DNA of 64,000 nt, from NCBI RefSeq assembly GCF_002278075.1, contig NZ_CP022990.1, positions 2,728,001 through 2,792,000 on the forward strand. The letters are read 5' to 3'. Within the stretch, counting starts at the first letter, position 1. Each line of letters starts with the position of its first letter. A program made the position numbers and the translations under genes. Under the pieces are notes generated by a model, which was not told the DNA's origin, ran no database searches, and worked only from the letters and a program-made list of their open reading frames with translations. Shown here piece by piece: positions 4,923 to 24,399 of the stretch. This DNA comes from Paraburkholderia aromaticivorans (GTDB lineage Bacteria > Pseudomonadota > Gammaproteobacteria > Burkholderiales > Burkholderiaceae).

Positions 4923-6407
4923 GTGTCTCGTTCAAGAATCCTTGCTCTGACGGCGATCGCTTCGGCGCTGTTCGTCACGACCGTCGCGCACGCCGGCGTC
5001 GATCTCATCGCGGTCGGTCAATTAAGCGGCCTTACCGGCGATCTGTCGAAGGAAACCGCCGCGCCGCTGGAGAACGGCGTGGCGGGCAATCTGCTCGGCG
5101 GCCTCGGTTCAGGCATCGCTTACGCGGGATGCCACACGTTTGTCGCCGTGCCGGACCGCGGCCCGAATGCCGTGTCGTATAACGCCGCAATCGACGACAC
5201 CGCCTCGTATATCAACCGTTTCCAGACCCTGCGCCTGCGCCTGAAACCCGGCGCGGCGGGCGCCTCGCTGCCGTACACGATGACGCCGGCCCTGCTCGCC
5301 ACCACGCTGCTCCACACCAGCGACACGCTGGTCTACGGCACGGGCGCCGCCGCGGGCGTGCCCAACGGCGCACCGGCGCTCAACCGCCGCAATCGCACCC
5401 ACTACTTCACCGGCCGCTCGGACAACTTCGATCCGGCACACCTGTCCACGGACGACCGCGACGCGCGCTTCGATCCGGAAAGCGTGCGTGTGAGCAACGA
5501 CGGCCAGAGCGTCTTCATCTCGGATGAGTACGGCCCTTACGTCTACCGTTTCGATCGCCGCAGCGGCCGTCGCATCGACACGTACAAGCTGCCGGACGCG
5601 TTCGCGGTCGCCACGCTGAGCTCGGTCGGCAACGACGAAATATCGCAGAACACCGCGGGCCGCGTCGCCAATAAGGGCATGGAAGGTCTCGCGATCTCGC
5701 CGGACGGCAACACGCTGTTCGGCGCGATGCAAAGCCCGCTGATCCAGGATGGCGGCACGAACGGCGGGTATACGCGCATCGTCAGGATCGACGTGCGCAC
5801 CGGCAGGACGACCCAGTTCGCGTATCCGCTGACGAACATCGGCACGGCGGCCAAGCCCAAGTATCCGACCATCAGCGACGTGCTCGCCGTCAACGATCAC
5901 GAACTGCTGATGGACGAGCGGGACGGCAAGGGGCTGGGCGACGATTCGACGGCCGCGTTCAAGAAGGTGTTCCATATCGACCTGAACGGCGCTCAGGACG
6001 TGAGCAACGCGAGCGGCGAGGCCGGCCTCGCGCCTTACGCGGTGCAGAAGACGCTGTTTCTGGATGTGGTCGCCACGCTCGTCGCGCACGGCTACAACGC
6101 GAACGATATTCCGGCGAAGCTGGAGGGTCTCGCGTTCGGTCCGGATGTCGTGGTCGGCGGCGTGAAAAAGCACACGCTGTTTGTGGCCAACGACAACGAC
6201 TTTCTGGGCACGATCACCGATACCCACCATCCGGCCGGCATCGCGAACCCGAATCAGTTTTTCGCCTTCGCGTGGGACCCGAGCGACTTGCCGGCGTATG
6301 TTGCGCAAAAACTGCCCGGCGTGGATGACGCGCATCACGGCGATCACCGCCGTGACCACGGCGAGTCGGGGGAGACGTGCGGTCCTGATCGCGACGACGA
6401 TCATTGA
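4923..6407 (+). CDS. Exported esterase-like/phytase-like beta-propeller protein
   Basis: The 494-aa protein begins with a Sec signal peptide (hydrophobic ILALTAIASALFVTTVAHA, cleavage near residue 25) and matches the 'esterase-like activity of phytase' family in its blocks: GVDLIAVGQLSGLTGD, NRTHYFTGRSDNF, RVSNDGQSVFISDEYGPYVYRF, GMEGLAISPDGNTLFGAMQSPL and KLEGLAFGPD. The fold in this family is a periplasmic beta-propeller; actual substrates are mostly unproven. Start is GTG at 4923 with CAGGGAGA upstream; the next in-frame Met would remove the signal. The last 25 residues are unusually rich in His, Asp and Arg, suggesting metal binding. It appears monocistronic, with about 240 bp upstream. 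Confidence 0.87.
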   Translation: MSRSRILALTAIASALFVTTVAHAGVDLIAVGQLSGLTGDLSKETAAPLENGVAGNLLGGLGSGIAYAGCHTFVAVPDRGPNAVSYNAAIDDTASYINRFQTLRLRLKPGAAGASLPYTMTPALLATTLLHTSDTLVYGTGAAAGVPNGAPALNRRNRTHYFTGRSDNFDPAHLSTDDRDARFDPESVRVSNDGQSVFISDEYGPYVYRFDRRSGRRIDTYKLPDAFAVATLSSVGNDEISQNTAGRVANKGMEGLAISPDGNTLFGAMQSPLIQDGGTNGGYTRIVRIDVRTGRTTQFAYPLTNIGTAAKPKYPTISDVLAVNDHELLMDERDGKGLGDDSTAAFKKVFHIDLNGAQDVSNASGEAGLAPYAVQKTLFLDVVATLVAHGYNANDIPAKLEGLAFGPDVVVGGVKKHTLFVANDNDFLGTITDTHHPAGIANPNQFFAFAWDPSDLPAYVAQKLPGVDDAHHGDHRRDHGESGETCGPDRDDDH

Positions 6408-7273: not shown

Positions 7274-8053
7274 ATGATGCGTTTCAATGGAAAAACCGCG
7301 TTGATTACCGGCGGAAATAGCGGCATTGGTTTCGTCACGGCCAAGCGGCTGATTGCCGAAGGCGCGCAGGTGGTGATCACCGGCCGCGACAGTGCGAAGC
7401 TGGATCAGGCCGTGTCCGAACTCGGCGAAAACGCGCTGGGCGTGCAGGCCAATCTGGATAACGAAGCGGATATCGGCGCGCTGTTCGAACAGATCAAGAG
7501 CCGGTTCGGGTCGCTGGATATCGTGTTCGCCAACGCCGGGATCTCCGGTCCGACGCCGCTCGGCGGCACCACGGCCGCGGCGTTCGAGGCCATTCTTCGC
7601 ACCAATCTGACGGCGGTCTTTCTGACGGTGCAAGCCGCATTGCCGTTGATGGGCGAGGGTGGCGCGGTCGTGTTGAACGGTTCGGTGATGCGCGAACTCG
7701 GTTCGCCGGGCTCGGCGGCGTATTCGGCCACCAAGGCCGGCATCACAGGCATGGCGAAGGTCTTCGCATCGGAACTGGTGCAGCGCGGCATTCGCGTGAA
7801 TACCGTGATCCCCGGCGGCACGCGCACGCCGATCTGGACTCGCGGCGCACGCGCGGGCGCCACGCTCGACGGAACCGAGCAGGCGCTGGCTCCGCGCGTG
7901 CCGATGGCGCGCCTCGCCGCGCCGGAAGAAGTCGCGGCAGCGGTGCTGTTCCTGGCTTCCGGCGACGCCTCGGGAATGACCGGCGCGGAGATCGTGGTGG
8001 ATGGCGGCACGACTGGCGCACCGTGGGGCGCGCCGATTTTCCGTCAGGGTTGA
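7274..8053 (+). CDS. SDR family oxidoreductase
   Basis: The 259-aa classical short-chain dehydrogenase has the NAD(P)-binding TGGNSGIG motif near residues 11-18, NAG at about 88-90, the catalytic Ser region LNGSVM, and YSATK (YxxxK) near residue 154. The N-terminal TGRDS suggests an NADP preference, because Arg after the second strand neutralises the 2'-phosphate. AAGGAGAGAG precedes a double ATG. It is divergent from the TetR gene and probably repressed by it. TetR-SDR pairs of this type often belong to xenobiotic or carbonyl stress responses, but no specific substrate can be assigned. Confidence 0.9.
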   Translation: MMRFNGKTALITGGNSGIGFVTAKRLIAEGAQVVITGRDSAKLDQAVSELGENALGVQANLDNEADIGALFEQIKSRFGSLDIVFANAGISGPTPLGGTTAAAFEAILRTNLTAVFLTVQAALPLMGEGGAVVLNGSVMRELGSPGSAAYSATKAGITGMAKVFASELVQRGIRVNTVIPGGTRTPIWTRGARAGATLDGTEQALAPRVPMARLAAPEEVAAAVLFLASGDASGMTGAEIVVDGGTTGAPWGAPIFRQG

Positions 8054-8110
8054 GGCAACGTCGCAGGTGAGTCGCCGCGCCGCACGATTAATCGGCGGCG
8101 TGGCCGGGGC

Positions 8111-9076
8111 TCAATACGCGCCGCTCACCAGATTCGTCGGCGCACCGCTCACGAAGTTCTCGATGTTGTCCATCAACTGATTCGCCAAACTCTGCTGTGC
8201 CTCATCCGACGCCCATGCCACATGCGGCGTCAGAATCACGTTTGGCCGGCTGGCCGCGCGCAGTAGCGGGTTGTCGTCGGCGGGCGGCTCGCCCGCGGTC
8301 ACGTCGAAACCCGCGCCGCTGATCAGCTCTTCGTCGAGCGCCTGCACGAGCGCGGCTTCATCCACGAGGCCGCCGCGCGCCGTGTTGATGATCAGCGGCC
8401 GGCGCTTCATCGCGCGAAACTCGGGCATGGCGAGCATGTTGCGCGTGTGCGGCGTGAGCGGGCTGTGCACGGTGATGATGTCGCTGCTCGCGAGCACCTC
8501 GTCCCATGGCGTGTAAAGCGGGCCGAGACCTTCGCGGCCCTTGTGCGCGGCGAACATCGGCTGCATGCCGAAGGCTTTGCCCAACTCCGCCACGCGCTGC
8601 CCAAGCACCCCTTCGCCGATGATGCCCAGGCGCGCACCGGCCAGATCGTGGATAGCGTGCGTGAAGAAACAGAATTGCCCGGATTTTTGCCACTCGCCGG
8701 CGAGCACATCGTCGCGATAGGCGACCAGATTGCGCCGCAGCGCGAGGATCAGCGCGAACGTATGCTCGGGCACCGTGTTGATCGCATAGCCGCGAATGTT
8801 GCTCACGGCAATGCCGAGCCGCTGGGCGGCCGCCTTGTCGACGCAGTCCGTGCCGGTCGCGGCCACCGCGACGAGTTTCAGCGCCGGCAATTGCTCCAGC
8901 ACCTCACTTGTCAGCGGCACTTTGTTGGTGATCGCGATCGACGCGCCGGCGAGCCGCTCGAGCAATTGATCCGGAGTGGTGCGCTCGTGCTCGATCAACT
9001 GATGCTCGAAGCGCGGCTCGCGCAGCACGATCTGCGGCGCGAGGGTCGCGCGGTCCAGAAAAACGATCTTATGCAT
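8111..9076 (-). CDS. D-2-hydroxyacid dehydrogenase (hydroxypyruvate/glyoxylate reductase-like)
   Basis: The 321-aa NAD(P)-dependent enzyme has the D-isomer-specific dehydrogenase layout: split catalytic domain, nucleotide motif GIIGEGVLGQRVAELG (the glycine pattern is GEGVLG), the catalytic Arg in INTARGGLVDE, a Glu in DVTAGEPPA and the catalytic His in LTPHVAW. It interconverts a D-2-hydroxyacid and a 2-oxoacid; glycerate/hydroxypyruvate is the best guess from similarity to glycerate dehydrogenase. It is the last gene of the transketolase/TRAP operon, 18 bp after the transketolase stop. Hydroxypyruvate is also a classic ketol donor for transketolase, which would link the two enzymes. Substrate identity is inferred. 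Confidence 0.88.
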   Translation of the reverse strand: MHKIVFLDRATLAPQIVLREPRFEHQLIEHERTTPDQLLERLAGASIAITNKVPLTSEVLEQLPALKLVAVAATGTDCVDKAAAQRLGIAVSNIRGYAINTVPEHTFALILALRRNLVAYRDDVLAGEWQKSGQFCFFTHAIHDLAGARLGIIGEGVLGQRVAELGKAFGMQPMFAAHKGREGLGPLYTPWDEVLASSDIITVHSPLTPHTRNMLAMPEFRAMKRRPLIINTARGGLVDEAALVQALDEELISGAGFDVTAGEPPADDNPLLRAASRPNVILTPHVAWASDEAQQSLANQLMDNIENFVSGAPTNLVSGAY

Positions 9077-9094
9077 GGTTAGGTATCCGATAAT

Positions 9095-11170
9095 TTACAG
9101 ATGCCGCTTCGCTTCAGCGACGATATGCTGCGCGGTGATGCCGAAATGCTCGTACAGCGTCTCCGCCGAGGCGGACGCGCCGAAGCCCGTCATGCCGACA
9201 AAGCCGCCGCGTTCGCCGAGATAGCGGTCCCAGCCGAAACGCAACGCCGCTTCCACGCCGATTCGCACGGTGCCCGAGCCGAGCACCGCGGCGCGATAGG
9301 CGTCGTCCTGTTCGTCGAAAATCTCCCAGCACGGCATGGACACGACTGCTGTCGCAATGCCCTCGTCCTGCAACTGGCGGCGTGCCTGCAAGGTCAGCGC
9401 GACTTCGGAGCCGGTTGCGAGCAGCGTCACGGCGCGCGCTCCGCCTTCGGCCTCGGCCAGCACGTAGGCGCCGCGTTGCGACAACGGTTCGGCGCTATGT
9501 GCGTGGCGCACCAGCGGCAGCGCCTGGCGCGCGAACACCAGCGTGCTCGGCCCGCGCCGATGCCCGAGCGCGAGCGCCCAGCACTCTGCGGCCTCGACGG
9601 CATCGGCGGGACGCAGCACGCGCATGTTCGGCATCGCGCGCAGCGAGGCGAGAATCTCGACGGGCTGATGCGTCGGACCGTTCTTGCCGACGCCGATCGA
9701 ATCGTGACTGAATACGAAGTGCACCGGCAGGCCCATCAGCGCGGCCATGCGCATGGCGGGGCGCTGATAGTCCGAGAACGCCAGATAGGTGACGCTCGTC
9801 GCGATCACGCCGCCATGCGCCGCCATGCCGTTGGCCATCGCGCCCATCAGGTGTTCGCGCACGCCGCAGTGGACGTAGGCGCCGCTGCGGTCGGCGGCGG
9901 TGAAGGCGTGCAACTGGCGCTTATGGCCCGTCGGCGCTTCGAGATCGGCGCAGCCGACCATGCGTTCCGGCAACAGCGGCGCGAGCAGATCGCTGATCTC
10001 GCCCGAGACGGTGATGCCGGGCTGCGGCTCGTCACGCTCCACGGCGCGTTTGCGGTAGTCGTCCAGCACGCCGCGCCAGCCAGGCGGCAGGTGGCCTGAA
10101 AGAACCCGTTCGAACTCGTCCCGCTGTGCGGCTGGCAAGGCGGCGAGACGTTCGTGCCATGCGTAATACTGCCGCTCGCTGCGCCGTCCTGCCGCGCGCC
10201 ATGCGTCGAGAGTCTGCGCGGGTATCTCGAACGGCGCGTGCGGCCAGCCGAGCGCGTCGCGCGCCGCGTCGGCGTCCGCCTGAAACAGCTTGCCGCTATG
10301 GCCGCCGCGCTGTCCCTGCAGACGCGCAATCCCGCGGCCGATCACGGTCCTGCACGCGATCATCGACGGGCGCGGGTCCGCGCGGGCGATCGTCAGCGCG
10401 GCCGACACCGCTTCGAGATCGTGCCCGTCGACTTCGACGACATGCCAGCCGCCCACGCGAAAGCGCGCGCAGACATCCTCGCTGATCGAGAGGGACGTGC
10501 TGCCGTCGTCGGTGATCTGGTTGTCGTCCCAGCAGAGAATCAGCTTGCCCAGTTGCAGATGCCCGGCGAGCGAAATCATCTCCTGGCCAATGCCTTCCTG
10601 CAGACAGCCGTCGCCGACGAACGCATAGGTGTAGTGGTCGACGAGGTCGCTGCCGAATTTCGCCGCGAGATACGTTTCGGCGATGGCCATGCCGAACGCG
10701 TTGGCGATCCCCTGGCCGAGCGGGCCGGTGGTGGCCTCGATACCGTGCGCCGGCTCGAACTCGGGATGGCCGGCGCAATGCGAGCCGAGCTCGCGGAAGG
10801 TCTTGATCTGCTCGAGTCCGATGGCGTCATAGCCGGTCAGATACAACAGCGAATAGAGCAGCAGCGAGCCGTGGCCGTTCGACAGCACGAAGCGGTCGCG
10901 ATCAGGCCAGGTCGGATCGGCGGGATTGAACTTCAGGTGACGGGTGAAGAGCGCGGTGGCGATTTCGGCCATGCCGAGCGGCACGCCCTGGTGGCCTTCG
11001 CCGGCACGCAGAATCGCGTCGATCGAAAGGAAGCGGATCGCGTCGGCCAACGGCAAGGGCGCGGCCTGAGTGACGGCGGGCACGTCGGCGGCGGGCGCCA
11101 TGCGCGGCAACGGCGTGATTGATGCGGGCGAAGCGTTCGGTGCGGCAGACGGGGCTTCGGTGGTGGACAT
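9095..11170 (-). CDS. tkt: Transketolase, full length
   Basis: The 691-aa thiamine diphosphate enzyme shows an N-terminal TPP domain (GHGSLLLYSLLY, GPLGQG, GDGCLQEG followed about 25 residues later by DDNQITDDG), a pyrimidine-binding domain with the catalytic Glu in VHCGVREHLMGAMANG and the loop HDSIGVGKNGPTHQP, and a C-terminal transketolase domain. It transfers a two-carbon ketol unit from ketose to aldose. The first about 35 residues are Ala/Pro-rich and variable, so a later Met is possible. It sits inside a catabolic operon together with a separate split transketolase, which is unusual for a housekeeping copy and suggests a dedicated, perhaps non-canonical, ketol donor or acceptor. Confidence 0.93.
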   Translation of the reverse strand: MSTTEAPSAAPNASPASITPLPRMAPAADVPAVTQAAPLPLADAIRFLSIDAILRAGEGHQGVPLGMAEIATALFTRHLKFNPADPTWPDRDRFVLSNGHGSLLLYSLLYLTGYDAIGLEQIKTFRELGSHCAGHPEFEPAHGIEATTGPLGQGIANAFGMAIAETYLAAKFGSDLVDHYTYAFVGDGCLQEGIGQEMISLAGHLQLGKLILCWDDNQITDDGSTSLSISEDVCARFRVGGWHVVEVDGHDLEAVSAALTIARADPRPSMIACRTVIGRGIARLQGQRGGHSGKLFQADADAARDALGWPHAPFEIPAQTLDAWRAAGRRSERQYYAWHERLAALPAAQRDEFERVLSGHLPPGWRGVLDDYRKRAVERDEPQPGITVSGEISDLLAPLLPERMVGCADLEAPTGHKRQLHAFTAADRSGAYVHCGVREHLMGAMANGMAAHGGVIATSVTYLAFSDYQRPAMRMAALMGLPVHFVFSHDSIGVGKNGPTHQPVEILASLRAMPNMRVLRPADAVEAAECWALALGHRRGPSTLVFARQALPLVRHAHSAEPLSQRGAYVLAEAEGGARAVTLLATGSEVALTLQARRQLQDEGIATAVVSMPCWEIFDEQDDAYRAAVLGSGTVRIGVEAALRFGWDRYLGERGGFVGMTGFGASASAETLYEHFGITAQHIVAEAKRHL

Positions 11171-11305
11171 GGCAAAAGGCTCCTCTACGCCGCTGCGTCA
11201 TGCGCAGCGGGCGGCAATAGACAAATCTGACGAACCGGCCCGACGTTGCGGGCGGAAGGACATCGCGCGAGGCGGCGCATGCCTCGCGCTTCACGGATCA
11301 ACGGC

Positions 11306-13165
11306 TCAATGCAGGAAGCCCGTCGAAATCCACGGTACGGCGGCCACGATGATCAGGCCGACCATCAACGCGGCGATGTAGCCGAGAATCGGCTTCATGC
11401 CTTCGTCGGGATGGATGCGGCTCACCGCGCACGCGGAGTAGTAGCCCACGCCGAACGGCGGCGCGAAGAGGCCCACACCCATCGAGAGGATCACGACCAT
11501 CGCGTAATGCACGTCGTGGATATGCATGGCGCGCGCGATCGGGAACATCAGCGGGCCGAACAGCACGATGGCCGGAATGCCTTCGAGCACGCTGCCGAGA
11601 ATCACGAACACGCAGATCGAGGCCGCCATGAACATTGCCGCACCGCCCGGCAAGGCGCCCAGGGTCTGCGCGAGCTGGCCCGAGAAGCCGGATTGCGTCA
11701 ACGCCCACGCCATCGCGGTGGCCGAGCCGATGATCAGCAGGATCGCGCCTGACAATGTGGCCGTGTCGATCAGCATCGGCTTCAGGCGTTTCCACTCGAA
11801 ACGGCGATAGATCAGCAGGCCGGCCAGCACCGCATACGCAATGCCGATGGTGGAGACTTCGGTCGCCGTCGCGATGCCTTCGACCACCGCCGCGCGAATC
11901 ACGAACGGCAGGGCGAGCGCCGGAAACGCGATCACCAGTTTGCGCAGAATCTCGCCGCGCGTTGCACGTTTGACGTTCGACATGTCCTCGCGCCGATAAC
12001 GCCACTGCACGACGATGCACAGCGTAATCGCCAGCACGATGCCCGGCAGCATGCCGCCCGTGAAGAGCGCCGAGATCGACACGCCGGTCACCGAGCCGAG
12101 CGTGATCAGCACGAGGCTCGGCGGAATCGTTTCGGTCTGCGCGCCGGTCGCGGCGAGCAGCGCGACCAGGTCGCCCGGTTTCGCCCCACGCGCTTTCATC
12201 TCCGGAAACAGCACCGGAGCGACCGCCGCCATGTCGGCGGCTTTCGATCCCGAGATGCCGGACACCAGATACATGGCGCCGACCAGCACGTACGAAAGGC
12301 CGCCGCGAACGTGACCCAGCAGGCTCGCGAGAAACGCGATCATTGCCGCGGCCATGCCGGTCATTTCGATCAACTGGCCGAGGAACACGAAGAGCGGCAC
12401 GGACAGCAGGATCAGATGCGACATGCCTTCGTCCATCCGGCCGACCACCACCGGCATCGGTGTGTTCGTGGTCAGCGCGAGATAGCCGAAGGTCGCGAGT
12501 CCGAACGAGAACGCGATGGGCACGCCGCTCAGCACGCCGAGCGCCACGAGGCCGACGAAGAAGATCAGCAGGTTCACATTGCCGAGCTCACGCAGCACCG
12601 GCCCGAGCGCGATGAAGGCGCCGACCAGCGCGCCGACTGTTGCGAGCGCACCCAGTACGAGACGCCAGTCGCCGAGGCGCGCGAGCCGCACCACGGCGAC
12701 CAGCAGCATCAGCGCCGAGCCGATCGGCAGCGCGGCGGCGCGCCACGAATTCGACAGTTCGAGCGCGGGGGTGGTGATGAACGACTCGTCCTGCGCGAAG
12801 CTGATCGCCGGGCCGATCACCATCGCGAGAAACGCGATGGGCGCGGCGATCGCCACCACGTCGAGAAACGCGCGCACACCCGGCGGCGCCATTCCGACCA
12901 GCGCCGTCATGCGCATATGCTCGCCGCGCCGCAACGCGATCACGGCGCCGAGCATGGCGAGCCAGAGGAACAGCATGGAGGCGAGCTCGTCGGACCAGAC
13001 GAGCGGCGCGTGCAGGATATAGCGGCTCGCCACGCCGGCCAGCAGCACGACGATTTCCGCCAGCACGAGCAAGGCGGCGGGAATTTCCACCAGGTGCCCG
13101 AGCGCTGAATCGAGCGCACAGGCGAAGCGGTGCTGCCGCTCGTGCGAATAAGAGATCGAGATCAT
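11306..13165 (-). CDS. dctQM: TRAP transporter fused permease (DctQM)
   Basis: The 619-aa membrane protein fuses the small DctQ subunit (about residues 1-190; four helices, with the family stretch RYILHAPLVWSDELASMLF) to the large DctM subunit (about 195-619; many helices, with GLATFGYLAL, PLFVFLGQLIEMTG, GISGSKAADMAAVAP and the C-terminal PPFGVGYY). DctM drives secondary, ion-coupled import of carboxylated substrates delivered by DctP. The start MISISYS lies 4 bp after the dctP stop; upstream open frame is not homologous. The next gene (transketolase) begins about 135 bp downstream. Import of a sugar acid or similar organic acid is expected. Confidence 0.93.
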   Translation of the reverse strand: MISISYSHERQHRFACALDSALGHLVEIPAALLVLAEIVVLLAGVASRYILHAPLVWSDELASMLFLWLAMLGAVIALRRGEHMRMTALVGMAPPGVRAFLDVVAIAAPIAFLAMVIGPAISFAQDESFITTPALELSNSWRAAALPIGSALMLLVAVVRLARLGDWRLVLGALATVGALVGAFIALGPVLRELGNVNLLIFFVGLVALGVLSGVPIAFSFGLATFGYLALTTNTPMPVVVGRMDEGMSHLILLSVPLFVFLGQLIEMTGMAAAMIAFLASLLGHVRGGLSYVLVGAMYLVSGISGSKAADMAAVAPVLFPEMKARGAKPGDLVALLAATGAQTETIPPSLVLITLGSVTGVSISALFTGGMLPGIVLAITLCIVVQWRYRREDMSNVKRATRGEILRKLVIAFPALALPFVIRAAVVEGIATATEVSTIGIAYAVLAGLLIYRRFEWKRLKPMLIDTATLSGAILLIIGSATAMAWALTQSGFSGQLAQTLGALPGGAAMFMAASICVFVILGSVLEGIPAIVLFGPLMFPIARAMHIHDVHYAMVVILSMGVGLFAPPFGVGYYSACAVSRIHPDEGMKPILGYIAALMVGLIIVAAVPWISTGFLH

Positions 13166-13169
13166 CGCA

Positions 13170-14213
13170 TCACCCCAGTTTTCCGACGGACTTCTCCAGC
13201 AGACCCCAGGCTTCGTCGCCGTATTTGCTCTTCCAGTCGTGGTAGAAGCTCGTCTTGGCCAGCGCGCCGCGGAATGCCTCGCGATCCACGTCGATGAAGG
13301 CAATGCCCTTGGTTTTCAGATCGTCGCGCAACGAGCTGCTCAGCTTCGCGATGTCCGCGCGTTGCAGCATCGCGGCCTTTTCGAATTCGCGCGTGACGAT
13401 GGCGCGGATATCCGCGGGCAGCCGTTCCCACGCGGCGCGGTTGCCGAGAATCCAGTAGCCGTCCCACACATGCGAGGTGAGGCTGATGTACTTCTGCACT
13501 TCGTAGAGCTTGGCCGTGGCGATGATCGGCAGCGGATTTTCCTGGCCTTCCACCACGCCCGTTTGCAAGGCCGAATACAGCTCGTTGAAGTTGATCGGCG
13601 CGGGGCCCGCGTCGAGCGCCTTGAATAGCGACGTCAGCATCGGCGCTTGCGGCACGCGGATCTTGAAGCCTTTCAGGTCGGCCGGCGTGCGCAACGCGCG
13701 GGTGGACGAACTGATTTGCCGGAAGCCGTTGTCCCACACCTTGCTGACCGACACGATGCCGGATTTGGCGATCTGCGCGCGGATGTAATTGCCGAGCTCG
13801 CCGTCCATGGCTTTCCACACGGCGTCGTAGTCCTTGAACGCGAAACCGGTGTTGACGATGCCCGCGGCCGGCGTGAGCGTCGCGAGAATCGACGAGGCCT
13901 GGTTGAAGAACTCCACGCCGCCGTTGCGCACCTGCGAGAGCAGGTCTGTGTCGGAGCCCAACTGGTTCTGCGGGAACAGCTTGATGTCGAGGCGGCCGTT
14001 GGTCGCTTCGCGAATGTGGTTGATGGCTTCCTGGGCGCGGATATTCACCGGGTGAGTCGGATCCTGGCCGGTGGCGAGCTTGTACGAAAACTCGGGCGCC
14101 GCCATGGCGCGCCGCGAGATGCTCCACAAAGGCACCGCTGCGGACAAGGTGGCGCCGGCTTTCAGAAAAGTGCGGCGGCTGATGCCCTGCGGGGCGTTCG
14201 AACGGGTAGTCAT
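13170..14213 (-). CDS. dctP: TRAP transporter substrate-binding protein (DctP)
   Basis: The 347-aa periplasmic protein starts with a twin-arginine signal (GISRRTFLKAG, then an Ala-rich hydrophobic core, cleavage after AMA near residue 39). The mature part has the DctP features QNQLGSDTDLLSQVRNGGVEF and FKIRVPQAPM; R186 in the IRVP block is the conserved arginine that clamps the ligand carboxylate in this family. This supports a carboxylated ligand. GGAGGAAG lies just before the ATG at 14213, so I prefer it over the in-frame ATG at 14228. It forms the importer with the fused DctQM gene 4 bp downstream. Confidence 0.93.
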   Translation of the reverse strand: MTTRSNAPQGISRRTFLKAGATLSAAVPLWSISRRAMAAPEFSYKLATGQDPTHPVNIRAQEAINHIREATNGRLDIKLFPQNQLGSDTDLLSQVRNGGVEFFNQASSILATLTPAAGIVNTGFAFKDYDAVWKAMDGELGNYIRAQIAKSGIVSVSKVWDNGFRQISSSTRALRTPADLKGFKIRVPQAPMLTSLFKALDAGPAPINFNELYSALQTGVVEGQENPLPIIATAKLYEVQKYISLTSHVWDGYWILGNRAAWERLPADIRAIVTREFEKAAMLQRADIAKLSSSLRDDLKTKGIAFIDVDREAFRGALAKTSFYHDWKSKYGDEAWGLLEKSVGKLG

Positions 14214-14369
14214 GGTGTCTTCCTCCAATATGGCGTGTCGTTATGGTTATGCTGGAATCTCGAGCGCGGCGGCCGCACGTGTTATGCGCCGCGCCCGTTT
14301 GCCTGGTACTGCTCGGTCTCCATCGCCGCCGCCGGCCTTCTGCCAGACGGCCCGTCCTGCCGGAGCCGA

Positions 14370-15134
14370 TCAGCCGTGAATCAGCATGCCGCCGTTCACG
14401 TCGATCACCGCGCCGGTGATATACGACGACAGGTCCGACGCGAGGAACAGGAATGCGCCGGCCACGTCGTCGGGCACGCCGAGACGATTCAGCGGAATGC
14501 CCGCGAGAATCTCGACGCGCTTGTCGTCGCTGATCTTGCCGGCGTTGATGTCGGTCTGAATCAGGCCCGGTGTCACGCAGTTCACGCGAATGCCGTCGTT
14601 GCCGAGTTCGCGCGCCATCGCTTTCGCCAGGCCGAGCACGCCGGCTTTGGCCGCCGAATAATGCGGGCCGCCGAGAATCCCGCCGCCGCGCTGCGCCGAC
14701 ACCGACGACATGCAGCCGATCGAGCCGCTCTTCTGCTTCTTCATTTGCGGCACGACCGCTTGCGACAGATACAGCACGCCGCGCAGGTTGACGTCCAGAA
14801 TGCGGTCCCAGCTTTGCGGGTCGATATCGAGCAGCTTGGCCGCCTGGGTGATGCCGGCGTTATTGATCAGGATATCGATCGAACCGAAATCGGCCACGGT
14901 ACGTTCAACAGCGGCCTGACAGGCAGCGCGGTCGGTGACATTGCACACATAGCCGCGATGCTCCGGGCCGATCGAAGCGGCGGCTTCTACGGCGGCTTTT
15001 TCGTCGAGATCGAAAATGGCGATGCGCGCGCCATGAGCGGCGAATTTGCGCGCGGTCGCCATACCGATGCCGCGCGGCGAGGCGCCGCCGGAAATGACGG
15101 CGACCTTGCCGTCGAGAAGACGTGACTCTGACAT
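14370..15134 (-). CDS. SDR family oxidoreductase (sugar/sugar-acid dehydrogenase-like)
   Basis: The 254-aa classical SDR has SGGASPRGIG (nucleotide motif, about residues 15-24), an acidic residue in IFDLDE after strand two that predicts NAD preference, NNAG near 90, catalytic Ser in MSSVSAQ and YSAAK. CAGGAGAT precedes the ATG at 15134. It lies between the split transketolase genes and the TRAP importer, so it probably oxidises the imported compound or reduces a transketolase product. The closest functional analogues are polyol and sugar-acid dehydrogenases, but the specific reaction cannot be assigned. Confidence 0.9.
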   Translation of the reverse strand: MSESRLLDGKVAVISGGASPRGIGMATARKFAAHGARIAIFDLDEKAAVEAAASIGPEHRGYVCNVTDRAACQAAVERTVADFGSIDILINNAGITQAAKLLDIDPQSWDRILDVNLRGVLYLSQAVVPQMKKQKSGSIGCMSSVSAQRGGGILGGPHYSAAKAGVLGLAKAMARELGNDGIRVNCVTPGLIQTDINAGKISDDKRVEILAGIPLNRLGVPDDVAGAFLFLASDLSSYITGAVIDVNGGMLIHG

Positions 15135-15216
15135 GATGCGGATCTCCTGAAAGTAATGCTTATGGTTTGCTGCGTCGTTGGCTAACGGTGACTGCGCCTG
15201 CCGGCCCTGGCCGGGT

Positions 15217-16215
15217 CTAGCGCAGCCAGCCTTTGATGGTGTCGCACATCGCTTCGGTGGAAATGCCGTAGCGCTCGTGCAGCGTCGGCAGCGCGCCGGC
15301 GTCGAGAAACGCGTCGGGCAGGCCAATCTGACGGAAGGGCGGCGTGACGCCGTTGGTCAGCAGCACGGTGGCCACCGCCTCGCCGAGCCCGCCGATCACC
15401 GTGTGGTTCTCCGCGACGATCACGAGGCGCCCCGGCCGGCGCGCTTCGCGCAGCAGCGTGACGGCGTCGAGCGGCTTGATGGTCGGCACGTGCAGCACGC
15501 CCACGTCGATGCGGTCGGCGGCGAGCGCCTTGGCCGTTTCGAGCGCACGCATCGTCATGATCCCGGACGAGATGATCAGCACCTCGGTGCCGTCGCGCAG
15601 CAGCTTCGCCTTGCCGAGTTCGAACTGATAGTCGTATTCGTCGAGCACGACCGGCACGTTGCCGCGCAGCAGCCGCGCATACACCGGGCCGCGATGGTCG
15701 GCGATCGCCGGCACCATCTGTTCGATTTCGAGCGCGTCGCACGGGTCGATCACCGTCAGGTTCGGCATCGCGCGGAACAGAGCAAGGTCTTCGGCCGCCT
15801 GGTGGCTCGGACCGTAGCCGGTCGTGAGGCCGGGCAGCGCGCACACGATCTTGACGTCGAGGTTGTCCTCGGCGATGGCCTGGTGGATGAAGTCGTAAGC
15901 GCGGCGCGCGGCGAACACCGCATAGGTGGTGACGAACGGTTGCGCGCCTTCGTGCGCCATGCCGGCCGCGGCGCCCATCAGCAACTGCTCGGCCATGCCC
16001 ATCTGATAGTAGCGCTCGGGGTATTCCTTCGCGAACAGATGCAGGTCGGTGTATTTGCCGAGGTCGGCGGTCATGCCGACCACCTCGGGCCGGTTGCGCG
16101 CGAGTTCCACCAGCGCGTGGCCGAACGGCGCGGAGCGGGTGATCTGGCCTTCACCGGCGATCGAGGCGATCATCGCCGACGTTTTCAGGCGCGGTTTCGG
16201 GGCGGCGGCGCTCAT
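15217..16215 (-). CDS. Transketolase, C-terminal (beta) subunit
   Basis: The 332-aa subunit carries the pyrimidine-binding domain and C-terminal domain of a split transketolase. It has FGHALVELARNRPEVVGMTADLGKYTD, the catalytic-Glu block YYQMGMAEQLLMGAAAGMAHEG, and GLTTGYGPSHQAAEDLALFR. In this family the glutamate of MAEQ activates the thiamine. Its ATG at 16215 overlaps the TGA of the alpha subunit gene (16214-16212) as ATGA, which suggests coupled, equimolar synthesis. Similar split enzymes serve special pathways such as apulose-4-phosphate or sulfo-sugar cleavage; the substrate here is unknown. Confidence 0.91.
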   Translation of the reverse strand: MSAAAPKPRLKTSAMIASIAGEGQITRSAPFGHALVELARNRPEVVGMTADLGKYTDLHLFAKEYPERYYQMGMAEQLLMGAAAGMAHEGAQPFVTTYAVFAARRAYDFIHQAIAEDNLDVKIVCALPGLTTGYGPSHQAAEDLALFRAMPNLTVIDPCDALEIEQMVPAIADHRGPVYARLLRGNVPVVLDEYDYQFELGKAKLLRDGTEVLIISSGIMTMRALETAKALAADRIDVGVLHVPTIKPLDAVTLLREARRPGRLVIVAENHTVIGGLGEAVATVLLTNGVTPPFRQIGLPDAFLDAGALPTLHERYGISTEAMCDTIKGWLR

Positions 16216-17072
16216 ACGGTTCTCCCGCCTTCGAGCGCCTGCAGCGCGAGTTGCCACTCGTGCGCGTCGACGCGGATAAAGTGGTTCTTCTCGCGTGCTT
16301 CGAGGAACGGCACGCCGTACCCCATGCGCGTATCGCAGACGATGATGCGCGGCTGCGCTTCAGGATGGGCGCGGGCCGCATCGAACGCGGCGACCACCGC
16401 CGCGAGATCGTTGCCGTCCACGCGCTGCACGAACCAGCCGAACGCCTGCAGTTTTTCGACCAGCGGCTCGAACGCCATGACCGCTGAAGACGGCCCGTCG
16501 GCCTGCTGGTTGTTGACGTCGACCATCGCGATCAGGTTGTCGAGTTTCCAGTGCGCGGCGGACATCAGTCCTTCCCACACCGCGCCTTCGTCGAGTTCGC
16601 CGTCGGAGAACAGCGTGTAGACGGTGGCGTCCGAACCCTTGCGCTTCAGACCCAGGCAGCGGCCGACCGCGATCGTCAGCCCCTGGCCGAGCGAGCCGCC
16701 GGACATTTCCATGCCGGGCGTGTAGCTCGCCATGCCGGACATCGGCAGGCGGCTGTCGTCGCTGCCGTAGGTCTCCAGTTCTTCGTCGGCGATGATGCCG
16801 GCTTCGATTAGCGCCGCGTACAGCGCGATCGCGTAATGGCCGTTGGAGAGCAGGAAGCGGTCGCGGCCTTCCCAATCGGGATCGTCGGCGCGATAACGCA
16901 TGGCGCGGAAGTAGGCGACCGCCAGCACGTCGGCGATGTCGAGCGCCTGGCCGATATAGCCTTGCCCTTGCACCTCGCCCATGCGCAGCGCGTTGCGGCG
17001 GATCTGGTAGGCGTGCTCCGCGAGTTGCGGATACGGCGCGGTTTCGCTTGTGTTCACTGTTGTCGTCTCCAT
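16212..17072 (-). CDS. Transketolase, N-terminal (alpha) subunit
   Basis: The 286-aa subunit carries the TPP diphosphate-binding domain: GQGYIGQALDIADVLAVAYF, NGHYAIALYAAL, SGGSLGQGLTIAVG and the metal/TPP motif SDGELDEG followed about 25 residues later by VNNQQADG. The usual first residue of the motif is Gly (GDG); here it is Ser. I start at METTTVN (17072); the frame is open further upstream but without similarity and would run over the promoter. It is the first gene of the seven-gene leftward operon and is divergent from a LysR gene, with a perfect palindrome between them. Confidence 0.9.
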   Translation of the reverse strand: METTTVNTSETAPYPQLAEHAYQIRRNALRMGEVQGQGYIGQALDIADVLAVAYFRAMRYRADDPDWEGRDRFLLSNGHYAIALYAALIEAGIIADEELETYGSDDSRLPMSGMASYTPGMEMSGGSLGQGLTIAVGRCLGLKRKGSDATVYTLFSDGELDEGAVWEGLMSAAHWKLDNLIAMVDVNNQQADGPSSAVMAFEPLVEKLQAFGWFVQRVDGNDLAAVVAAFDAARAHPEAQPRIIVCDTRMGYGVPFLEAREKNHFIRVDAHEWQLALQALEGGRTV

Positions 17073-17166
17073 AGGTCTTTTGTGTGCCGCATCGACGCCG
17101 CAGCCAGTGATGACAAGCGTAATCGCCTCCCCAGCAACGCTCAAACGAATTAAGATGGCCGATAGA

Positions 17167-17179
17167 TGAATTGAATTCA
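17167..17179. promoter_or_regulatory. Candidate LysR box upstream of transketolase/TRAP operon
   Basis: TGAATT-G-AATTCA is a perfect 13-bp palindrome with exact T-N11-A geometry, the LysR-type core. It lies 95 bp upstream of the first operon gene and just before the LysR start, so the regulator could control both directions. Confidence 0.6.
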
Positions 17180-17192
17180 CGTGGATGCTGCC

Positions 17193-18083
17193 ATGCACAA
17201 TCGCGTCACGCTCAAGTCGATACAAGCCTTCGAAGCGGCCGCACGGCTTTCGTCATTCGCGCTCGCAGCAGAAGAACTGTTCGTGACGCCCTCGGCGATC
17301 AGCCATCAAATCAAGCTGCTGGAAGAGCAATTAAGCATTCGTCTGTTCCATCGGCTGCATCGCACGGTGCTGTTGACGGACTCGGGTCGGCAATACGCTG
17401 AGGAAATCACCTCGGCGTTCGCGCGCATCGACGCGGCGACGCGCGAGATTGGCCGGGTGGCGAAGAGCGACATCCTCACGATTCACAGCACGCCGAGTTT
17501 CGCGACCCAATGGCTGATGCCGCGCATCGCGCGTTTCAGCGCGGCGCATCCGGATATCGACGTGCGGTTGAATGCGTCGTCGGAAGCGGCGGACCTGATT
17601 TCTGGAGCGGTCGATATCGACATCCGCTACGGTCCGCGCAAGCTGCAGCCGGCCGGCACGCTGGTGCTGGAATTGCCGCCCGAGACGATCGTGCCGCTGT
17701 GCGCGCCGGCGCTCATGAGCGGCGACTACCCGCTGCGCAGCGTCGCGGACTTGCAGCACCATCCGCTGATTCATAGCGAGGGCTGTCTGGTCGGCTGGCG
17801 GGACTGGATGCGTTTGCATCGAAAGACGCGGATCGATATTGGACGCGGGCCGCGCTTTGACCGCTCGTTCATGGCGTTGAGCGCCGCGGTCGACGGCTTG
17901 GGCGTGTGTCTGGAGAGCCTGCTGCTCGCGCAGCGCGAACTGGAAACCGGGCGGCTCGTCGCGCCATTCGGTGTGGACGGACTCAGCGTGAACGGCTATA
18001 CGCTGAATCTGTTGAAGTCGCGTGCGGATTTGCCGAAGCTGCGCAGCTTCCATGATTGGCTGTTTGCCGAATTGGAACGGTGA
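17193..18083 (+). CDS. LysR family transcriptional regulator
   Basis: The roughly 296-aa protein has an N-terminal HTH (SSFALAAEELFVTPSAISHQIKLLEEQL) and an effector-binding domain starting near residue 92 (LTIHSTPSFATQWLMPRI), again of the GcvA-like subgroup. Two starts are possible: GTG at 17181 or ATG at 17193; I use the ATG because MHNRVTLKSIQAFE aligns with the usual N-terminus. The gene is divergent from the transketolase/TRAP operon and has a palindromic T-N11-A site in front of it, so it is the likely activator. The effector is probably the imported acid or a catabolite. Confidence 0.9.
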   Translation: MHNRVTLKSIQAFEAAARLSSFALAAEELFVTPSAISHQIKLLEEQLSIRLFHRLHRTVLLTDSGRQYAEEITSAFARIDAATREIGRVAKSDILTIHSTPSFATQWLMPRIARFSAAHPDIDVRLNASSEAADLISGAVDIDIRYGPRKLQPAGTLVLELPPETIVPLCAPALMSGDYPLRSVADLQHHPLIHSEGCLVGWRDWMRLHRKTRIDIGRGPRFDRSFMALSAAVDGLGVCLESLLLAQRELETGRLVAPFGVDGLSVNGYTLNLLKSRADLPKLRSFHDWLFAELER

Positions 18084-18209
18084 GGCCTTGCATGGCACAA
18101 GGTTTTTCGCTGAAGCGCAGGCCGTCCGGAGGGCATTTTTAACCAAGACGGTCCCGCACGGGACTGGGTATGCTAGGCGAATTCAGTCAATTCCTGCGAG
18201 GACACCAAG

Positions 18210-18923
18210 GTGCCGCACTATCTTTGCCATGAGCAGCCGGACCTGCTGGACTTTGAAACAGCCGTGATCGCGGCGCGGCCGGGCGCGGTCGTGCTGGGCC
18301 GTTCCGCGTTGCATCCGGGCGGTGGCGGCCAGGTGTCGGACGCGGCCACGCTCACGCACGCGAACGGCGCGGTGCGCATCACCGGCGTCGCGACGGAAGG
18401 CGAGATGCTGTGGCATCTGCTCGACGAGCCGCTGGAACTGGCCGGCAACGTGCATGTGGCGATCGACGCGGCGCGCCGCGCCACGGTCGCTCAGCTCCAT
18501 ACCGCAACGCATATTCTCAACGCGCTCGTGTATCAGCGCTTTGCCGGCGCGCTCGTGACCGGCGCGCAGATCAACGCGGACGGCACCGCGCGGATGGATT
18601 TCGATCTGCCCGACGCGGATAACGACGCTCTGCGTTTGCTGGAAGAACCGGCCAACGAAGTGATCCGCGAGGCGATGGAGGTGCGCGCCTACTATGTCAG
18701 CGCCGCGGAAGCGAAGGCGACGCAGGGTCTGATCCGCAGCCTCTCGGTGGCGCCGCCGCCGACGCCGGACGGCACGGTGCGCATCGTCGAGATCGGCGAT
18801 CTGGACCGGCAGGCATGCGGCGGCACGCATCTGACCAATACGGCGCAGTCGCGGCCCATCCGCATCGCGAAGATCGAAAACAAGGGCCGCCGCAATCGCC
18901 GGGTCAGAATCGAGCTGGTGTGA
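18210..18923 (+). CDS. Alanyl-tRNA editing protein, AlaX-M type
   Basis: The 237-aa protein is a free-standing editing domain related to alanyl-tRNA synthetase and hydrolyses mischarged Ser- or Gly-tRNA(Ala). The zinc site is complete: H97 and H101 in HTATH, C203 and H207 in CGGTH. The N-terminal LHPGGGGQ block, which contacts the tRNA in AlaX-M and AlaRS, is also present (about residues 35-41). Start is GTG at 18210, preceded by GCGAGGACA. It is followed 25 bp later by an AraC-type gene in the same direction; no functional tie between the two is apparent. Confidence in family is high; specificity (Ser versus Gly) is not read from sequence. Confidence 0.93.
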   Translation: MPHYLCHEQPDLLDFETAVIAARPGAVVLGRSALHPGGGGQVSDAATLTHANGAVRITGVATEGEMLWHLLDEPLELAGNVHVAIDAARRATVAQLHTATHILNALVYQRFAGALVTGAQINADGTARMDFDLPDADNDALRLLEEPANEVIREAMEVRAYYVSAAEAKATQGLIRSLSVAPPPTPDGTVRIVEIGDLDRQACGGTHLTNTAQSRPIRIAKIENKGRRNRRVRIELV

Positions 18924-20234: not shown

Positions 20235-20903
20235 TCAGTTGTTCATCATCCGTTCCCGGTGCGGAACGACCCACGAGCGGTCGAAGCTGCCGTCGGCAAT
20301 CGACTTGAGCGCGGCTGTTTCTTTCGCATGCTGGCGACGCGCGCCTTCGATCACGGCTTGCGCGTCGGCGGGTGCGATGGCGAGCAGGCCGTCTTCGTCG
20401 CCGACAATGATATCCCCAGGATGCACCACCATGCCACCGACCGTGACCGGCACGTTGATTTCGCCCGGTCCGTTCTTGTACGGCCCGCGATGCGTCACAC
20501 CGCGCGCGTACACCGGAAAATCGCGCTGGCGCAGCGCGCCGACGTCGCGGATCGCGCCGTCGATCACGAGCCCCTGCACGCCGAGACTTTCCGCAAAGCT
20601 GGCCATGATCTCGCCCATCAGCGCCTGCGTGAGTTCGCCCGCGCCGTCGATGACGAGCACGTCGCCGGGCCGGCAAAAGTCGAACGCGCGATGAATCGCG
20701 AGATTGTCGCCCGGCCGCGTGTGGACCGTAACGGCGGTGCCGGCCATGGGTCTCGGCTGATGGTAGGGCCGCAAGCCCACCATGCCGCTCGCGCGCGCCA
20801 TGTTGTCGCTCAGCAGCGACACGGCCAGCTCACGCAACGCGTCGAGTGTGGCCGCGTTGGCCTGCGGCGCGGACTCGTATTCGCGCCAACCGATTGGATT
20901 CAT
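20235..20903 (-). CDS. RraA-fold aldolase/dehydratase (4-carboxy-4-hydroxy-2-oxoadipate aldolase-like)
   Basis: The 222-aa protein belongs to the RraA/HMG-CHA aldolase family: GTAVTVHTRPGDNLAIHRA, CRPGDVLVIDG, ALMGEIMASFAESLGVQGLVIDGAIRDVGALR (the GxxRD motif that binds Mg2+ and pyruvate) and VHPGDIIVGDEDG. Members of the class II pyruvate aldolase group cleave 4-carboxy-4-hydroxy-2-oxoadipate to pyruvate and oxaloacetate. The partner is the LigJ-like hydratase gene just upstream, whose product would be that substrate. Its ATG overlaps the LigJ stop as ATGA. RraA itself is an RNase E inhibitor, but the operon favours the catabolic role. Confidence 0.82.
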   Translation of the reverse strand: MNPIGWREYESAPQANAATLDALRELAVSLLSDNMARASGMVGLRPYHQPRPMAGTAVTVHTRPGDNLAIHRAFDFCRPGDVLVIDGAGELTQALMGEIMASFAESLGVQGLVIDGAIRDVGALRQRDFPVYARGVTHRGPYKNGPGEINVPVTVGGMVVHPGDIIVGDEDGLLAIAPADAQAVIEGARRQHAKETAALKSIADGSFDRSWVVPHRERMMNN

Positions 20904-21940
20904 GCTGTTGCCCCTTGCGTAGCGAGTTGTCGATCGAGTTGACGCGTGAGCCGGGCATACACGGCGCGCGCGTTGTCTTCGTAGATGCGCTGACGGTCCG
21001 CGTCGCTGAGCCAGTCTATGGCGTCGATATAGCGGCGCGTGTCGTCGTAATAGTGGCCGGTCTCCGGGTCGATACCTTGAACCGCGCCGATGGTTTCCGA
21101 CGCGAACAGGATGTTGCCGACTGGAATGACCTTGGCGAGCAGTTCGGTGCCCGGCTGGTGATAGACGCAGGTGTCGAAGAACACGTTGTTCAGCAGGTAT
21201 TCGCTGAGCAGCGGGCGCTGCATGTCCTGCGCGAGGCCGCGATAGCGTCCCCAGTGATAAGGCACGGCGCCGCCGCCATGAGGAATGATGAAACGCAGCG
21301 TCGGGAAGTCGGCGAACAGATCGCCCTGCAGCAACTGCATGAACGCCGAGGTGTCGCCGTTGATGTAATGCGCGCCCGTCGCGTGGAAATTCGGATTGCA
21401 CGACGACGAGACGTGAATCATCGCGGGCACGTCGAGTTCCACCATCGCTTCATAGAGCGGATACCACGAGCGGTCCGTGAGCGGCAGGCCGGACCAGTGG
21501 CCGCCGGACGGATCCGGATTCAGATTGCAGCCGATAAAACCAAGCTCTTCGACGCAGCGCCGCAATTCGGCGATGCAGTTCGCGGGCGGCACGCCGGGCG
21601 CCTGCGGCAACTGGCACACGCCGACGAAGTTGCGCGGAAACAGCTCGCACACGCGATGCACGAGGTCGTTGCATGCGCTCGACCAGAGCGCGTTGGCGTC
21701 CGCGGCGGCGAGGTGATGGCCCATACCGGCGGCGCGCGGCGAGAAGATCGTGAGGTCGGTCCCGCGCTCGCGCTGAATGCGCAGCTGGCCGGTTTCGATG
21801 CTCTCGCGAATCTCGTCGTCGGTGATGACGGGCCGTGGTGGCGGCGTGCCGCCATCCCTGAGCGCGGCGATCTGCTGGGCGCGCCAGGCTTCGTGCTGGC
21901 GCGGGGCGGTCGTGTAGTGACCGTGGCAATCGATGATCAT
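20900..21940 (-). CDS. ligJ: Amidohydrolase-family 4-oxalomesaconate hydratase (LigJ-like)
   Basis: The 346-aa protein opens with MIIDCHGHYTTAP, the HxH metal motif (H6, H8) in the wording typical of LigJ, and has further metal-site candidates in MIHVSSSC and IIPHGGGA. LigJ hydrates 4-oxalomesaconate to 4-carboxy-4-hydroxy-2-oxoadipate in the protocatechuate 4,5-cleavage and gallate pathways. The next gene encodes a matching RraA-fold aldolase, overlapping as ATGA, and an MFS carrier lies upstream. A related gamma-resorcylate or ACMSD-type decarboxylase is the main alternative, because these share the fold, but the start motif and aldolase neighbour favour LigJ. No ring-cleavage dioxygenase gene is in the window. 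Confidence 0.83.
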   Translation of the reverse strand: MIIDCHGHYTTAPRQHEAWRAQQIAALRDGGTPPPRPVITDDEIRESIETGQLRIQRERGTDLTIFSPRAAGMGHHLAAADANALWSSACNDLVHRVCELFPRNFVGVCQLPQAPGVPPANCIAELRRCVEELGFIGCNLNPDPSGGHWSGLPLTDRSWYPLYEAMVELDVPAMIHVSSSCNPNFHATGAHYINGDTSAFMQLLQGDLFADFPTLRFIIPHGGGAVPYHWGRYRGLAQDMQRPLLSEYLLNNVFFDTCVYHQPGTELLAKVIPVGNILFASETIGAVQGIDPETGHYYDDTRRYIDAIDWLSDADRQRIYEDNARAVYARLTRQLDRQLATQGATA

Positions 21941-22032
21941 GGTAGGCCAATCCTGTGAGTTGTCGCCGCGCGTGCGCGTGGTGTGTCCGCTGATGCGATC
22001 ACTTGTGTTCCATCCGCTCGTTGGGCCGCTTC

Positions 22033-23355: not shown

Positions 23356-23455
23356 CCTGTCTCCTCCCTGGCGGCGACGGCCGTAACCGTGGCTGCGTTC
23401 TAATCATGTGTGAGGCAATGATAAGAACGCGCGCGCAGGGAGTCCAAGACTGCTT

Positions 23456-23485
23456 GCTTATGCTTCTATAACTTTCTGCTTATAG
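23456..23485. promoter_or_regulatory. Clustered CTTAT/CTATAA half-sites before MFS-LigJ operon
   Basis: CTTAT (23457-23461), CTATAA (23466-23471) and CTTATAG (23479-23485) are related half-sites; CTATAA and TTATAG form a perfect 6-bp inverted repeat. The cluster overlaps the 3' end of the LysR gene and lies about 100-130 bp upstream of the MFS start, a plausible LysR activation site. Confidence 0.4.
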
Positions 23486-24379: not shown

Positions 24380-24399
24380 ATCGGTTATTTCCTCCGGGC

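Follow-up and report, generated by a model that had tools for sequence, protein, structure and literature searches.

Seven genes read leftward and a LysR-type regulator read in the opposite direction lie side by side in the window, as we call the whole stretch of 64,000 nucleotides that was analysed, which belongs to contig C2 of a genome of 8.9 Mb. The seven genes encode the two subunits of a split transketolase (TK), an SDR oxidoreductase, the solute-binding protein and the fused permease of a TRAP transporter, a full-length TK, and a D-2-hydroxyacid dehydrogenase (Table 1). This layout had been given in a preliminary description of the sequence and is borne out, the families being confirmed by Pfam and NCBIfam.

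Table 1. The operon and its divergent regulator, with positions in the window.
Name	Positions	Strand	Product	Basis and remarks
HADH	8111..9076	-	D-2-hydroxyacid dehydrogenase	Pfam 2-Hacid_dh
TKF	9095..11170	-	Full-length TK, altered acceptor pocket	Pfam; TIGR00232
DctQM	11306..13165	-	Fused TRAP permease	Pfam DctQ + DctM; start MISISYSHE
DctP	13170..14228	-	TRAP solute-binding protein	Pfam DctP; alternative ATG at 14213
SDR	14370..15134	-	SDR oxidoreductase	Pfam adh_short_C2; start MSESRLLDG
TKC	15217..16215	-	Pyrimidine and C-terminal subunit of split TK	Pfam Transket_pyr + Transketolase_C
TKN	16212..17072	-	N-terminal, ThDP-binding subunit of split TK	Pfam Transketolase_N
LysR	17181..18083	+	LysR-type regulator, GcvA-like, divergent	Pfam HTH_1 + LysR_substrate

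TKN and TKC overlap by 4 bases, DctP and DctQM are 4 bases apart, and TKF and HADH 18 bases apart. From the common strand, this spacing, and the conservation described below, we infer that the seven genes are cotranscribed. A crude sigma-70 scan of positions 7900-18300, which carries little weight for this organism, found no promoter-like site against 1.2 expected by chance. The best solved relatives of TKN and TKC are 6yak, the split TK of Carboxydothermus, and 6yaj, respectively, and that of the SDR is 7krk. TKF scores 702.9 bits with the NCBIfam model TIGR00232, above its cut-off of 682.25, and the regulator 303.2 bits with NF008352, above its cut-off of 288. TKC scores 196 bits with TIGR00204, below the cut-off of 466, and the split enzyme is made of two chains. 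Elsewhere in the window, positions 4923-6407 encode a protein with a phytase-like esterase domain, and a separate minus-strand group at 20235-25350 comprises RraA-like, Amidohydro_2, and MFS transporter genes together with two LysR regulators.

DctP was used as the query against 84,980 named genomes, which gave 250 stretches encoding relatives, and the best 80 were taken as loci. The nearest named matches belong to Paraburkholderia and Caballeronia, records of the source genome being possibly excluded from the lists. The order LysR, TKN, TKC, SDR, DctP, DctQM, TKF, HADH, as read from Blast searches against the open reading frames (ORFs) of the loci, is kept in Paraburkholderia, Caballeronia, Trinickia, Pandoraea, and Azospirillum. 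A chance arrangement could be rejected, since the gene set recurs in order in other genomes. Bradyrhizobium and two Methylobacterium loci have SDR, TKN, TKC, DctP, and DctQM, with TKF and HADH absent from the stretch searched, and in a Microvirga locus (L063) TKF and HADH lie on the opposite strand. The neighbourhood search that had been proposed for these families thus finds them together in other Burkholderiales and in Azospirillum, and a core of SDR, split TK, and transporter more widely across Pseudomonadota, with the transporters swapped. The operon is a real, conserved catabolic module. It is apparently uncharacterised: no publication on it is among the best-ranked full-text matches, in a search that left most subscription journals outside, such that earlier work is possible.

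The 77 named-genome loci with a TKN at least 63% identical to that of the window all have TKC, SDR, and DctP, the count for DctP being circular because these loci come from the best 80 of the 250 found via DctP; TKF is present in 48 of them and HADH in 47. We also hand-picked 100 survey stretches, a subset of the TKN matches, of which 87 have a TKN at this level of identity. Among these 87 loci, the SDR (at least 55% identity) is present in 71, TKF in 17, and HADH in 15. Hence, the SDR that had been described beside the split TK accompanies it in 77/77 named loci and 71/87 survey loci, and at least 7 of the 16 survey loci without it have an LtnD-like gene instead (L101-L103, L105-L107, L177). 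The two sets overlap, six pairs of loci having an identical TKN (e.g. L026/L104 and L033/L123). Features around TKN were counted within 9.5 kb, and the glycerate kinases of L056 and L057 (see below) therefore score 0 there. At the genome level, TKN (E <= 1e-60) was found in 68 of 200 genomes of the family of the window, 8 of 300 in its order, 2 of 369 in its class, 24 of 398 in its phylum, and 55 of 347 in the order of another genome, G882. The genome surveys of TKN and TKF scored up to 12 and 5 candidates per genome, respectively, and misses are possible.

The transporter varies between loci, which have TRAP systems of the window type, other TRAPs (DctP near 33%), MFS, or ABC systems, with TTT genes nearby in some cases. 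An MFS protein replacing TRAP best matches the D-galactonate transporter model, below its cut-off. A second copy of the core is found in the same genome as the window (L100, C2:2524000-2543000), with LysR, SDR, MFS, TKN (84%), and TKC (85%); divergent sugar ABC genes and an Amidohydro_2 gene lie alongside it, and past TKC there are two inverted ORFs of 418 residues, alike in the letters shown, that are probably an insertion sequence. A second LysR and split TK (TKN 69-71%) come after the full operon in the Caballeronia loci L026 (TKN same as in L104), L034, L039, and L046. A TKN relative of 62% identity occurs outside Pseudomonadota, on an Arthrobacter plasmid (L219). Dihydroxyacetone-kinase-like (DhaK) genes are located near the split-TK module in L099, L151, and L152, the Dak1 domain being confirmed for L099. 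We excluded a group of split TKs at 49-56% identity (L158-159, L191-199), which probably represents another system; many of its members lie with mandelate-racemase-type genes and SDRs of another kind.

The presence of two TKs of different architecture in one operon had been singled out as unusual, and we find the two linked in many genomes. Orthologues of TKF (E <= 1e-235) are present in 17 of the 200 genomes of the family, and all 17 also have TKN. Given the 68 TKN genomes, random placement would produce this co-occurrence with a probability of 2.5e-9, uncorrected for kinship. Sixteen of the 18 TKF copies lie 2.1-5.2 kb from TKN, one lies at 12.8 kb, and one is on another contig, in a genome whose two TKN matches sit at contig ends. 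In other orders, TKF and/or HADH occur with the split TK in L112, L113, L147, L165, L173, L175, L177, L179, L183-L185, and L187; Skermanella has TKF and/or HADH with it, and Hartmannibacter TKF alone. Among plasmid records with TKF, 12 of 15 also carry TKN. The exceptions are two Azospirillum records, for which a different plasmid of the species or strain bears TKN, and Methylobacterium aquaticum, with no TKN within the 20 kb stretch that was examined. We count both TKF and HADH as parts of the system.

Active-site residues of both TKs were read from alignments with E. coli TktA and follow the E. coli numbering. Over-long ORFs and unpaired genes among 191 loci were dropped. Of the 140 locus-derived TKN and TKC pairs that remained, 133 reach 63% identity and 7 fall short of it; of the 70 TKF-like proteins, 69 reach 55%, and the last, at 49%, has canonical residues. 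The catalytic Glu411 and His473 are present in both enzymes (133/133 split TKs and 69/69 TKFs), and the split TK also keeps H66, H261, and R520 in 133/133. It is devoid of all five canonical ligands H26, H100, S385, H461, and D469: Y26, S100, and L461 are found in 133/133, Y385 in 132/133, and Asp469 in 0/133. The deletion near Asp469 shifts with the alignment, with a gap in one and Tyr in another, and Asp in none, and R358 is ambiguous, with an Arg one column away (TR motif) in the protein of the window. These changes are also seen in HMMER alignments with the solved split TK 6yak/6yaj. TKF keeps H26 (68/69), H66, H100, H261, H461, and H473, and lacks S385 and D469, with D469N in 69/69, R358I in 67/69, S385P in 66/69, and Asp189 in 69/69. 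Counting identical sequences once (128 distinct split TKs and 63 distinct TKFs) gave the same result. Among the 7 more distant split TKs, Y26 is found in 7/7 and S100 in 6/7; as these seven have most of the changes of the split TK, the changes mark a wider clade, beyond the operon alone.

The phosphate pocket is thus altered in both enzymes, which makes it likely that they act on non-phosphorylated substrates, a possibility raised in the preliminary description. The alternative is ordinary pentose-phosphate or apulose-type chemistry, with redundant TKs recruited beside a TRAP importer. TKF does exceed the cut-off of the general bacterial TK model, the genome holds four further full-length TKs besides it, and TK duplication is frequent here. 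But the loss of phosphate and substrate ligands is fixed and Pfam reveals no sugar kinase, of the FGGY type or any other, among the eight genes, which renders this alternative highly improbable.

Some of the altered positions have been engineered in other TKs. Passages of one study describe pyruvate use by a stabilised E. coli TK with H100L and D469T, a higher kcat with pyruvate when S385Y is added to them, and a loss of activity when S385Y is placed in another background (PMC10787763). Passages of a second study present His100 as a difference between TK and DXS, where it is replaced by Phe, and report that another TK uses pyruvate better with H100F/L (PMC7661550). The residue at this position in the split TK is Ser throughout the 133, and our own alignment gives Arg in E. 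coli DXS, in a stretch that is poorly aligned.

HADH belongs to the broad family of 2-hydroxyacid dehydrogenases, which includes glyoxylate and hydroxypyruvate reductases. Its nearest solved chain is 5tx7, which has an unspecific name, followed by glyoxylate reductases, and every NCBIfam match is below the cut-off. We predict that it is a hydroxypyruvate/glyoxylate reductase. A glycerate kinase gene is located directly after HADH in L056, L057, and L212 (Azospirillum) and in L214 (Allorhizobium), the only four such matches among the loci searched (L009-L216 and the window). L056 and L057 have the gene run TKN, TKC, SDR, LtnD-like, DctP, DctQM, TKF, HADH, glycerate kinase. A. ramasamyi (L212) has TKF, HADH, and glycerate kinase after an SDR that shares 83% identity with that of the window, with no TKN within the stretch, and in Allorhizobium the order is TKF, HADH, glycerate kinase, LysR, TKN, TKC, SDR, DctP. 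DUF4147 and MOFRL domains are shown for two of the four kinases, and glycerate 2-kinase models are the best matches of three, with scores that all stay under the curated cut-offs. The genome of the window has one MOFRL-type gene, outside the operon. Hence, the earlier statement that a kinase is missing holds for the eight genes of the window and fails for these four loci, in which HADH most likely makes D-glycerate. Hydroxypyruvate had been proposed as a ketol donor; given the glycerate kinase following HADH in the four loci, and the family of HADH, it looks more like a product.

The view of the transporter as a carboxylate importer is supported by DctP, DctQ, and DctM matches above the Pfam cut-offs and by the conserved carboxylate-binding residue R186, which is indeed present as the Arg of a KIRVP motif, counted from the ATG, and is shared with 4oan. 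The latter is the solved chain nearest to DctP (61.5% identical over 312 residues). We take it to be modelled with (S)-2-acetolactate, a ligand reportedly from Vetting 2015. The two nearest relatives of 4oan in our set, at 74-75%, are the DctPs of L093 and L095, from loci without TK, and the next, at 66-67%, are those of L186 and L189, with TK, and L094, without. As 4oan is closer to DctPs of loci without TK, acetolactate may not carry over to DctP, and the case for it as the ligand of DctP is weakened. Two DctPs of other types that were searched are nearest to 4p9k/4pak and 4p47. In the loci L093, L094, and L095, DctPs close to 4oan are accompanied by genes for acyl-CoA synthetase, SDR, and DUF296/PPC, and in L094 and L095 also for a thiolase; these loci are possibly a sister route for short oxo acids. 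L186 and L189 have a 4oan-like DctP (67%) with a split TK, another SDR, and an acyl-CoA-synthetase-like gene, and possibly link the 4oan-type and split-TK systems.

The genes surrounding the core bear on the nature of the substrate. Of 121 loci, 12 have Amidohydro_2 lactonase-like genes near it; the strand is the same in 6 of these, and sugar ABC genes are also present in 9. One ABC binding protein that was searched is nearest to ribose-binding proteins, and on one Rhizobium plasmid ABC genes and an amidohydrolase come directly after SDR, split TK, and TRAP. An SMP-30-like lactonase cluster is found in 4 of the 121 loci, once on the same strand, inside the operon of L170. LtnD-like genes are present in 15 loci, 14 of them on the same strand, and one of four that were scanned exceeds the L-threonate dehydrogenase cut-off. 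The lactonase families near the core and the galactonate-type MFS in place of TRAP point to an acid substrate, and the context of importer, lactonase, ABC, and LtnD-like genes is compatible with a C4 to C6 sugar acid.

Our best explanation, which we hold tentatively and at slightly less than even likelihood, is an undescribed kinase-free route. The TRAP importer would take up a sugar acid, and the SDR, predicted to turn the imported acid into an oxo acid, would oxidise the hydroxyl beside the future cleavage site to give an alpha-hydroxy-oxo acid. The split TK, with ThDP, would attack the carbonyl, retain C2, and free a C3 keto acid or semialdehyde, after which HADH, placed here at the family level, would reduce hydroxypyruvate to D-glycerate, and glycerate kinase would give 2-phosphoglycerate. 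TKF has intact ketol-binding histidines and a changed acceptor pocket, from which its role would most likely be to cut a hydroxymethyl-ketone version of the substrate or to pass the C2 unit on. The biochemical class of the module is moderately supported. As for the substrate, a C5, possibly branched, sugar acid is our best guess, because HADH is assumed to make glycerate from a C3 product and TK to keep C2. One reason for favouring a branched donor is that TKs of the apulose type act on a branched sugar, from which a ketone is released. At a guess, the preferred compound would read HOCH2-CO-C(OH)(CH2OH)-COO- once oxidised and free hydroxypyruvate directly, the alternative C5 substrate being a linear pentonate.

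Several observations count against this explanation. Glycerate kinase is found in only four loci and is absent from the operon of the window, 16 of the 87 survey loci have no SDR, HADH is below all NCBIfam cut-offs, and 4oan is nearest to DctPs of loci without TK. Most of the active-site changes are shared by the 7 more distant split TKs, which speaks against an operon-specific reading. The LtnD-like genes could mean a C4 acid. Threonate or erythronate would then be oxidised at C3, TK would give glyoxylate and a ketol, and HADH would reduce glyoxylate to glycolate, in line with the glyoxylate reductases among the nearest named solved relatives of HADH. Passages of a review list pantoate/D-erythronate, together with 2-acetolactate, among newly found TRAP ligands (PMC5812351). 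We nevertheless consider such a tetronate route unlikely: the glycerate kinase adjoining HADH in four loci points to D-glycerate, the genome already has an LtnD above the cut-off elsewhere, and lactonase-like genes and sugar ABC transporters suggest longer chains, though tetronates form lactones too.

The loss of H100 suggests a methyl-ketone donor, with which the CH2OH ketol of the kinase-free route fits less well. The split TK might thus be an acetyl-transferring enzyme that cuts CH3-CO-C(OH) compounds, acetolactate-like or derived from 5-/6-deoxy sugar acids, in a route for methyl-ended acids. Both H100 and H26 are lost in 133/133, the acetolactate reportedly modelled in 4oan would agree with such a donor, and the one lactonase scanned with NCBIfam matches L-fucono-1,5-lactonase only, below the cut-off. 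The joint effect of H100L, D469T, and S385Y on pyruvate use, as given in passages of the engineering study, argues in the same direction (PMC10787763). On the other hand, binding of a hydroxyl by Ser and Tyr is still conceivable, and TKF, which is linked to the split TK, retains the full ketol site, so that we assign this reading a low probability. Returning to the kinase-free route, a bolder version of it, which we regard as doubtful, is that the split TK is a natural carboxylate-specific TK that would cleave a 2-hydroxy-3-oxo acid, either acetolactate-like or the branched oxo acid from 2-hydroxymethyl tetronate. This would in effect be an acetolactate-synthase-like reaction reversed, within a widespread kinase-free route from branched/deoxy C5 sugar acids to D-glycerate.

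If true, the proposed route would mean that many proteobacteria associated with soil and plants possess a TK-based pathway for sugar acids; among the matches listed, their two-subunit TKs bear only generic or 'uncharacterized' names. The names of the 120 TKC matches listed are all variants of 'transketolase'. One of these, P0204 of Paraburkholderia piptadeniae, is 86% identical to TKC and is named 'putative uncharacterized transketolase family protein y4mN', i.e. it is of the same subunit family, under a name that gives no function. A Sinorhizobium plasmid carries LysR, SDR, split TK, and TRAP together, with TKF and HADH absent from that stretch. LysR, SDR, split TK, and transporter are thus common to this set and the window, in which TKF and HADH are extra. 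The y4m genes are presumably those of plasmid pNGR234a, and we take the Sinorhizobium-type set to be the y4m set.

Known pathways differ from the module in their enzymes or gene content. The preliminary description had set it apart from the apulose and sulfo-sugar systems, and our results agree. The apulose pathway was reportedly described by Carter in 2018, and the split TKs beside an FGGY kinase in L221, L224, and L225 are, we assume, of the apulose-4-phosphate transketolase (AptAB) type. Like the enzyme of the window, these three are two-subunit TKs in a sugar catabolic locus and have lost Asp469 and His461; unlike it, they keep H26, H100, R358, and S385 and have a sugar kinase in the locus. 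With Tyr26, Ser100, and Tyr385 in the window and the missing FGGY kinase, an apulose-type TK was rejected. A sulfo-sugar TK was rejected on gene content, the only feature compared, as Pfam finds no sulfonate genes among the eight. The genes of the L-threonate/D-erythronate pathway are LtnD/DenD-OtnI-OtnK-OtnC, this Otn pathway being reportedly that of Zhang 2016; as to its signature, positions 8111-18083 contain no kinase or aldolase Pfam domain.

The split TK of Carboxydothermus hydrogenoformans (6yaj/6yak) has the same subunit architecture as that of the window. It differs in keeping the His/Asp/Ser set, including His100, and passages of its description state that it does not accept pyruvate (PMC7661550). 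A parallel in the positions changed lies with engineered E. coli TKs, in which passages of two studies place changes at 385 and 469 (3M), 100 and 469 (6M), or all three (TK-1), these enzymes being man-made and having other residues at 100 and 469 (PMC5073344, PMC10787763). If our reading is true, the split TK and TKF would be natural enzymes altered where biocatalysis groups mutate TK active sites by hand.
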